Shown here piece after piece: positions 1,190 through 4,020 of a DNA stretch of 64,000 bases. This stretch comes from a virus. The stretch is from positions 1 to 64,000 of IMG/VR virus record IMGVR_UViG_3300021425_003021; one strand, 5' to 3'. The number at the start of each line of letters is the position of its first letter. Position 1 is the first letter of the stretch. Under the pieces are notes generated by a model that was not told the DNA's origin, did not search any database, and was given only the letters and a program-made list of their open reading frames with translations. The position numbers and the translations under genes were made by a program.

Positions 1190-1219
1190 AAAAAAAGGCC
1201 TGCTAAAATGTAGCAGACC
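1190..1219 (-). terminator. Intrinsic terminator of the ncRNA
   Basis: On the minus strand GGTCTGCTA, a five-base loop and TAGCAGGCC form a nine-pair stem with one G-U pair. Seven T residues follow (1190-1196). This is a textbook rho-independent terminator. No reading frame ends nearby on this strand, so it most likely ends the non-coding transcript from the promoter at 1452-1479. Confidence 0.85.
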
Positions 1220-1445
1220 TTTCTCTAATAATGTGATAGGTAGGACTAAGGATTACCTACAAGTGCCGTGACATATCCTGTCTACATAACTAGCACAACC
1301 TCACAATAGAATGGTTAGTTCTACTTTCTCTGCAATGCCTTGTCTCCAAGGTCTTACAGCGCCACCACAGCGTGTGAGTCAAGTTACTGCCTATGTGAAG
1401 CAGCGTTTCCTTGCACTATCTAACTAGGACCGTCGTCTTTGTTAT
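1190..1445 (-). ncRNA. Probable phage small RNA of about 255 nt
   Basis: This is a gene-free stretch bounded by a host-type promoter (1452-1479) and a strong terminator (1190-1219) on the minus strand. It is clearly richer in GC than its surroundings. It contains small hairpins, including CCTTG-GAGA-CAAGG with a GNRA tetraloop (1338-1351), a CACA/TGTG stem and a GTAGG/CCTAC stem near the 3' end. A possible closing AGTGC/GCACT pair joins the two ends. No ribosome site with an open frame is seen. It does not match what I know of tmRNA, RNase P RNA, 6S RNA or tRNA. Promoter, structure and terminator together make a dedicated RNA gene likely. Its function is unknown. Confidence 0.7.
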
Positions 1446-1451
1446 GTACTT

Positions 1452-1479
1452 AATATAGCATATACAAAACAAAAGTCAA
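1452..1479 (-). promoter_or_regulatory. Host-type sigma70 promoter for the ncRNA
   Basis: Minus strand: TTGACT at 1474-1479, a 16-base spacer, and TATATT at 1452-1457. The predicted start is near 1445. The -35 box overlaps the stop codon of the cold-shock-like gene (1476-1478). No coding frame follows, so the product should be the RNA that ends at 1190. Confidence 0.65.
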
Positions 1480-2925: not shown

Positions 2926-4020
2926 TTAATTTAAACCAGCTAAACGCTTGATGTCAACCACATTATGGTCGGCGCTTGCTGTCATATCAGTATTTTTTGT
3001 TTCTCTATTGCCTGTTACTTCTTTTGCCTCTGCTAGTACTGCCTTCTTTGTTGGACTCTTGCCGTCGATAACTGCCGGTAAGTATTTTTCAAATTGATTT
3101 TGTAATTTATCAGTTTGAACTGATTCTAACAAGTCCATCATTATTTCTTTTTGGTCAATGCTCAAAGGAGCAATTAAACTATCAATCTTTGCTTTGCGTG
3201 ACACTGACTCAGTAAGTTTTTTGTTCTCATTAGCCTGTGATTCTGCAAGCTTAATTGCTTTTGCCGCTGCTACTTTTGCTTCTGCTAATTGTTTGTCTTT
3301 AGCACCAACAACTTTTAGAAGTTTTTGTGTTTCACTCTTCTCGTTTAGATATGAGTGTTGATATTCGTTAGCAAATGCTTCGAATAGTTTGCGACCAAAA
3401 TCGTTTTCACGTGCTGCTTCAATATCTTCTTTAAGTGCTGAAATTTCTTTTGTAAGTCCTTTTGACACTGTTTCTGATACCAAGGCTGCACTTTTCTTAA
3501 TAAAGTTTGATTTAACTGTATTAAGATGTTCTTTGGCTTCACGTACAATACGTACTTTTGTTTCAGCCAAGTCTTTTTTATCTTCGTAAAATTCTGCAAG
3601 TTCTTTAGCAAGTGATTCAACTACAAATTCTTCTAAAGCAACAAACTTGTCTGCCATTGCTTTTTGATCTGAATGTAGTTCTTTAATTTCTGTAGCAAGT
3701 TGCTCAGAAACGAAAGTCTTCATTAGTTCTGCATTTTTACGCTGAGCAACTGCAAATTTTGCTTTTGCTTCTGCTAGTTGCTTACGGTCTTCTTGGAATT
3801 CTGCAATTTCTTCTGCAAGTTTTTCAGATACAAGACTATCAATGGCTTCAACCATAGTTGATTTGTCGTGCTCATACTTTTTTGCAAATTCTTCACGTAA
3901 TTCAGCAGTAACCTCAAGGCGATTTTCTTTCACCTTAGCGTTCCATGCTTCTGCTAATTCAGAACGTACTTCTTCCGATAGTGCGTCATTTTCGAAGAGA
4001 TTTTTTAGTACATCTACCAT
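2926..4020 (-). CDS. gp22: Prohead scaffold core protein gp22
   Basis: This 364-residue, almost wholly alpha-helical, highly charged Glu/Lys/Ala-rich protein has long coiled-coil stretches (about residues 20-330). It sits directly between the gp21 protease and gp23 genes. This is the scaffold around which gp23 assembles; it is cut to peptides by gp21 during maturation. Repeated segments such as SEQLATEIKELHSDQKAMA and ESLAKELAEFYEDKKDLAE look like internal duplications of a roughly 40-residue helical unit. Many L-x-E and I-x-E sites could be gp21 targets. GAGGAG precedes the ATG. Confidence 0.92.
   Translation of the reverse strand: MVDVLKNLFENDALSEEVRSELAEAWNAKVKENRLEVTAELREEFAKKYEHDKSTMVEAIDSLVSEKLAEEIAEFQEDRKQLAEAKAKFAVAQRKNAELMKTFVSEQLATEIKELHSDQKAMADKFVALEEFVVESLAKELAEFYEDKKDLAETKVRIVREAKEHLNTVKSNFIKKSAALVSETVSKGLTKEISALKEDIEAARENDFGRKLFEAFANEYQHSYLNEKSETQKLLKVVGAKDKQLAEAKVAAAKAIKLAESQANENKKLTESVSRKAKIDSLIAPLSIDQKEIMMDLLESVQTDKLQNQFEKYLPAVIDGKSPTKKAVLAEAKEVTGNRETKNTDMTASADHNVVDIKRLAGLN

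Follow-up and report, generated by a model that had tools for sequence, protein, structure and literature searches.

The window examined here, comprising the 64,000 nucleotides at positions 1 to 64,000 of the IMG/VR virus record IMGVR_UViG_3300021425_003021, carries a structured RNA locus on its minus strand within a capsid gene cluster, a setting that was already recognised in an initial annotation and is borne out by matches of gp23, gp21, and the portal gene to PHROG models. The gp23-type major head protein (1743-2915; phrog_138, E 6e-103) is T4-like, shares 63-70% identity with jumbo phages, mostly of proteobacteria, and is followed by an intrinsic terminator (1700-1725) and an upstream 69-aa ORF (1476-1685), the stop codon of which overlaps the -35 region of a sigma70-type promoter (1452-1479). 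This promoter consists of a -35 hexamer TTGACT (1479-1474), a spacer of 16 nt, and a TG-extended -10 hexamer TATATT (1457-1452), matches at 10/12 positions, and predicts from its spacing a transcript start at approximately 1445. There follow the structured RNA (1234-1442), an intrinsic terminator (1190-1222; AAGGUCUGCUA-CAUUU-UAGCAGGCCUU followed by U7, or AAGGTCTGCTACATTTTAGCAGGCCTT followed by T7 in the DNA), the conserved motif CATTATAACCCATTTT (1170-1185), a late promoter GATAAATA (1153-1160), a freshwater-2 RNA (RF02980; 1069-1138), and a gene encoding 121 aa of no known family (706-1071), all on the minus strand. As originally described, the RNA stretch is devoid of reading frames: no minus-strand ORF longer than 30 aa lies inside it, and no conserved protein frame was found in the same place.

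The RNA, which the initial annotation had been unable to assign to a known family, was placed by the covariance model search that the same annotation proposed. With cmscan, positions 1440-1230 match Rfam manA (RF01745) at 59.0 bits against a gathering threshold of 55.2, over model positions 1-192 of 192. Membership is reciprocal, since a model built from the window's clade alone (R1) recovers cyanophage manA in L018 (47.4 bits, E 2.5e-13) and S-SSM5 (42.8 bits, E 1.9e-12); the same model scores the window copy, which is part of its training set, at 215 bits. The window copy represents a divergent clade, at 59 bits versus approximately 140-190 for cyanophage copies. A BLAST search of phage sequences with the locus returned nothing beyond chance matches, and only covariance models reveal the homology. 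The terminator alone accounts for a weak Thr_leader match (26.7 bits, cut-off 55), which was rejected.

A pattern derived from the conserved 3' hairpin yielded 120 viral stretches, 89 of which have manA-like ends by sequence, including the window's own copy (L001); L006 and L024, which match the 3' hairpin pattern only, were removed. Rfam scored manA in 36 of the first 50 records, and the copies split into a cyanophage type and a divergent set to which the window belongs. Among the 119 genome-contig pattern matches listed, at least one is a true manA (L271, a Gammaproteobacteria MAG, with manA at the contig end), and four sequenced jumbo phages related by gp23 contain none. A sub-threshold candidate (25.9 bits) was also observed in the SAR11/Pelagibacter phage HTVC008M (NC_020484.1, 5037-5223; L321), where it is accompanied by a perfect TTGACA-N17-TATAAT promoter and stands before an ssDNA-binding protein gene. 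In the GenBank records of P-HM1, P-HM2, P-SSM4, and S-SSM5 (L304, L303, L310, and L308), small ORFs annotated as "hypothetical protein" overlie manA; these are probably not genes.

The initial description of a structured stretch is well founded, in that 1450-1185 folds at -83.6 kcal/mol, far more stably than shuffled sequence (z = -4.0; 0/200 shuffles as stable); the accompanying description "GC-rich" is not, the GC content being only 0.45. A 5' hairpin GAC-GACG-GUC (1428-1437), whose GACG loop is largely kept while its stem varies between clades, precedes the 5' half of the closing helix, GAUAG (1416-1420), which pairs with CUAUC (1239-1235). Within this helix lie the pseudoknot strands UGGU (1364-1367) and ACCA (1312-1315), the previously noted GNRA-loop hairpin CCUUG-GAGA-CAAGG (1338-1351), in which the pairs at columns 94-97/102-105 covary among relatives, and the 3' hairpin GUAGG-UAAUCCUUAGU-CCUAC (1240-1260), whose conserved loop served as the search pattern. 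The closing helix, the 5' and 3' hairpins, and a pseudoknot, the last marked as questionable in the description of the family, are shared with manA RF01745, as is the full model length at a score above the cut-off.

Conservation of pairing across relatives, the absence of which would have counted against an RNA according to the initial annotation, was assessed with 21 distinct close relatives, using the Rfam structure as transferred from the window copy and adding the apical hairpin. In this set 85.8% of cells are paired, 18 pairs show changes on both sides (slid controls, 3-7 double-changed pairs), and the covariation score of 0.195 was reached by 0/500 shuffles; RNAalifold on the same alignment returned 41 pairs, 15 with double changes. 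In the window itself, 50/54 mapped Rfam pairs are standard. The mapped forms of helices 5, 8, and 10 agree poorly with the alignment (53-63% of cells paired), and these helices may have a different layout in the window's clade. The pseudoknot (UGGU/UAGU with ACCA/ACUA) is paired in 97.6% of cells, compared with 0-69% in slid controls, and one of its pairs switches between A-U and G-C; it may be the one that carries a question mark in Weinberg et al. (2010; PMC2864571). Because a MAFFT alignment of all clades together was wrong in the middle of manA, pairs were counted on the clade alignment A1, and comparisons between clades rely on model alignments.

As a single match, the window promoter is not significant (14 such sites found versus 13.4 expected), and it is accepted as real because it is conserved in relatives and not because of the quality of the match. 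In 22/22 distinct close relatives, TTGAC and a TATATT-like hexamer are kept just upstream at a fixed distance from the first RNA base, and the letters of the spacer vary. Likewise, a TTGACA-N16-18-TATAAT-like site abuts manA in 42/42 distinct cyanophage-type copies, picked regardless of promoters (mean score 11.1 of 12.5; shuffled 7.8), and in 12/12 cyanophage isolates, among which the metagenome-assembled metaG-MbCM1 is counted, the -35 often falling within the terminator of the preceding gene. The minus-strand terminator (1222-1190), correctly located in the initial annotation and missed by a default terminator scan, folds at -15.3 kcal/mol. At the gp23 site, an intrinsic terminator follows manA in 27/27 loci of the window type and more divergent variants, usually after 8-22 nt and at most after approximately 60, with its stem rebuilt from different letters; a recognisable promoter is absent only in L176 among these loci. 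Terminator-like hairpins also follow manA in P-HM1, MED4-213, and P-SSM7, a feature not common to all cyanophages.

Exactly one manA is present in each of the 12 isolate genomes, at six or more different sites: after gp23 (P-HM1, MED4-213, metaG-MbCM1, P-RSM4, and S-SSM5), after pstS (P-SSM3 and P-SSM4), between regA and purL (P-SSM2), after ferredoxin (P-SSM7), before gp32 (P-HM2), and near transaldolase (P-TIM68 and P-RSM6; in P-TIM68, the gene that lies behind manA on the opposite strand is possibly a spurious ORF and was given no weight as evidence). A second copy per genome is possible elsewhere, since most contigs are fragments and one of 4.8 kb (L030; G029) holds two cyanophage-type copies (119-315 and 3636-3836). 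An invariable position of manA 3' of a gene was considered and given up for the cyanophage type, whose upstream neighbours are oriented 35 + and 9 -. At the gp23 site, the type of manA does not track the identity of the neighbouring gene (rho 0.04, p 0.85), and the manA cassette therefore seems to have been exchanged. In two contigs, a glutamine riboswitch (RF01739) was observed in the gp23-manA region a few hundred bases upstream of manA (L127:3214-3264 and L163:2298-2345).

In two divergent groups, manA resides within tRNA arrays, the tRNAs ending 5-10 nt before it or starting approximately 11 nt after it. A same-strand tRNA lies within 20 nt of 12/86 manA copies, as opposed to 0.2 when positions are drawn at random on these contigs (at most 3 in any of 2000 trials), although this count overstates the number of independent events because the contigs are partly related. 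In L065, a permuted tmRNA occurs within approximately 15 nt after manA; permuted tmRNAs of the alphaproteobacterial type were observed in the phage contigs L017, L020, L065, and L070 (70-115 bits). In L035, L108, and L314, window-type manA stands between bS21 (after IF-3) and Hsp20/ClpS genes, the gene families having been identified on L108 and the L314 placement resting on the model match and the bS21 position only; records with manA at this site carry no gp23. The gene run on L108 (7531-9832) comprises IF-3, bS21, manA, a small ORF, Hsp20, and ClpS, then IMPDH/GMP reductase. A conserved, structured-looking stretch of no assigned family (GAACTGTAAC..GGAGAC..CTAGACAAG..) directly follows manA in five viral contigs (L108:8541-8800; L035:3150-3020 on the minus strand; also L313-L315). 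The window record, which is a fragment, contains no tRNA and no bS21.

Taken together, positions 1445-1190 of the minus strand are best interpreted, with a probability of roughly 0.7, as an autonomous manA-family RNA gene whose discrete product of approximately 255 nt would act in trans. From the dedicated sigma70-type promoter, host-type RNA polymerase would initiate at the very 5' end of manA, probably at an early stage of infection, and would stop at the terminator just after manA, releasing a discrete and stable RNA of approximately 255 nt that is predicted to be compact, closed by pairing of its 5' and 3' ends and by the pseudoknot. The folded RNA most likely acts in trans by binding a host or phage protein or ribonucleoprotein. 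The translation apparatus may be offered as a weak first guess at the target because of the neighbours of manA elsewhere (tRNA arrays, permuted tmRNA, bS21, and IF-3). The initial annotation was accordingly sound in reading the stretch as a discrete RNA under a host-type (probably early) promoter and with an intrinsic terminator, a gene that proves to be conserved across relatives along with its pairing. It erred in holding the RNA unplaceable in a known family; among the roles that it suggested (regulator, decoy, or RNA polymerase modulator), none is singled out by any feature of the sequence.

The established view of the family is a different one: the Rfam type of manA is Cis-reg, Weinberg et al. 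(2010; PMC2864571) treat it as cis-regulatory and a possible riboswitch (rated "Y" and "y", respectively), and a 2023 phage paper and a 2025 review still list it as cis-regulatory. Applied to the window, manA would sense a ligand, and the terminator at 1222-1190 would serve as the expression platform that decides whether transcription continues into the 706-1071 gene and past it. That the terminator directly follows manA is consistent with such a leader, and a promoter abutting manA is also expected of one. Between the terminator and the gene, however, stand a late promoter and a separate leader, a layout that would not be expected of a cis-regulator of this gene. The leader is a member of freshwater-2 (53.9 bits versus a gathering threshold of 49.9), an element distinct from the manA RNA whose match ends on the ATG at 1071-1069. 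A gene-based search with the downstream protein found 60 loci at the same site, and most relatives have both the gene's own late promoter, [G/C]ATAAATA, and a leader; the two persist in loci without manA (L143 and L153). Judged from position and conservation, the next gene would thus lie outside the control of manA, because it has its own late promoter and leader. A leader resembling freshwater-2 was observed directly behind the late promoter in most of approximately 30 distinct relatives. The sequence NATAAATA, a cyanophage late promoter (PMC2984593), occurs 9 times in the window versus approximately 36 expected under a first-order model. The motif CATTATAACCCATTTT precedes the late promoter at an exactly constant spacing in 33 loci and is missing from several manA-less loci and from some with manA; read on the plus strand, it presents a perfect TATAAT facing manA, possibly an antisense promoter.

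Further observations bear on the leader reading. The gap between manA and its terminator is variable (approximately 10 to 60 nt), and manA combined with its own terminator arm (-8.9 kcal/mol) is hardly distinguishable from swapped arms (-8.7 kcal/mol; permutation p 0.10), a comparison that gave no attenuator signature. Some copies are followed by a tRNA or tmRNA, leaving no mRNA to regulate, and the single copy per genome, the dedicated promoter, and the changing neighbours argue for an RNA gene as opposed to the leader of one regulon. A case for a leader is made by the cyanophage-type contigs, in which the next gene is co-oriented in 44/44 and in about half is gp32, starting 25-80 nt away; in cyanophages with gp32 at this distance a leader role is possible, whereas for the window we consider it unlikely.

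Similarly improbable is a base-pairing (antisense-type) small RNA directed at a particular phage or host mRNA: the size and stand-alone nature of the unit would suit it, and the plus-strand TATAAT beside the terminator in many relatives could yield an antisense partner, but conservation extends over the whole fold, including the closing helix and the pseudoknot, instead of being confined to a short seed. A transcription decoy, which would be made early and in abundance and would bind host RNA polymerase as 6S RNA does, is compatible with the host-type promoter and the discrete size, and an early phage would have to redirect the host polymerase; yet manA branches several times and has a pseudoknot, in contrast to the single long hairpin and central bubble of 6S RNA, it has no Rfam 6S match, and its likeness to 6S RNA ends with the proposed early-RNA/host-polymerase idea, without resemblance in sequence or fold, which makes this reading quite unlikely. 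Hardly credible is a 3' element that stabilises or ends the upstream head-gene transcript, despite the position of manA immediately 3' of gp23 both in the window and in five cyanophages and 3' of other genes elsewhere, as the terminator after gp23 precedes manA in the window, manA has its own promoter, and it follows tRNAs in other phages.

Relative to manA as it has been catalogued, the window copy differs in being a closed promoter-RNA-terminator unit instead of a gene's 5' UTR, and in its phage, whose head protein is nearest to those of proteobacterial jumbo phages rather than cyanophages. GOLLD and ROOL are large stand-alone phage non-coding RNAs found near tRNA genes. The autonomous manA gene proposed here would resemble them as a structured phage RNA gene often adjoining tRNA genes, and differs in its far shorter length (approximately 200 nt) and in having no Rfam match to either. 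In the literature searched, which for Weinberg et al. (2010) comprised the main article, no description of a stand-alone manA unit was found. A bolder generalisation, for now doubtful, would make manA a class of autonomous early phage RNAs, present as one site-moving copy in T4-like phages and targeting the host's translation machinery in trans, together with phage tRNAs, permuted tmRNA, bS21, and IF-3, in which case its filing as a riboswitch candidate would be wrong for the family as a whole.

If manA is indeed an independent RNA gene, a search for its ligand by way of the gene behind it could not succeed, and its binding partner would be the right question to pursue. Cultured cyanophages (P-SSM2, P-HM2, and others), each of which carries exactly one manA at known coordinates, render this directly testable.
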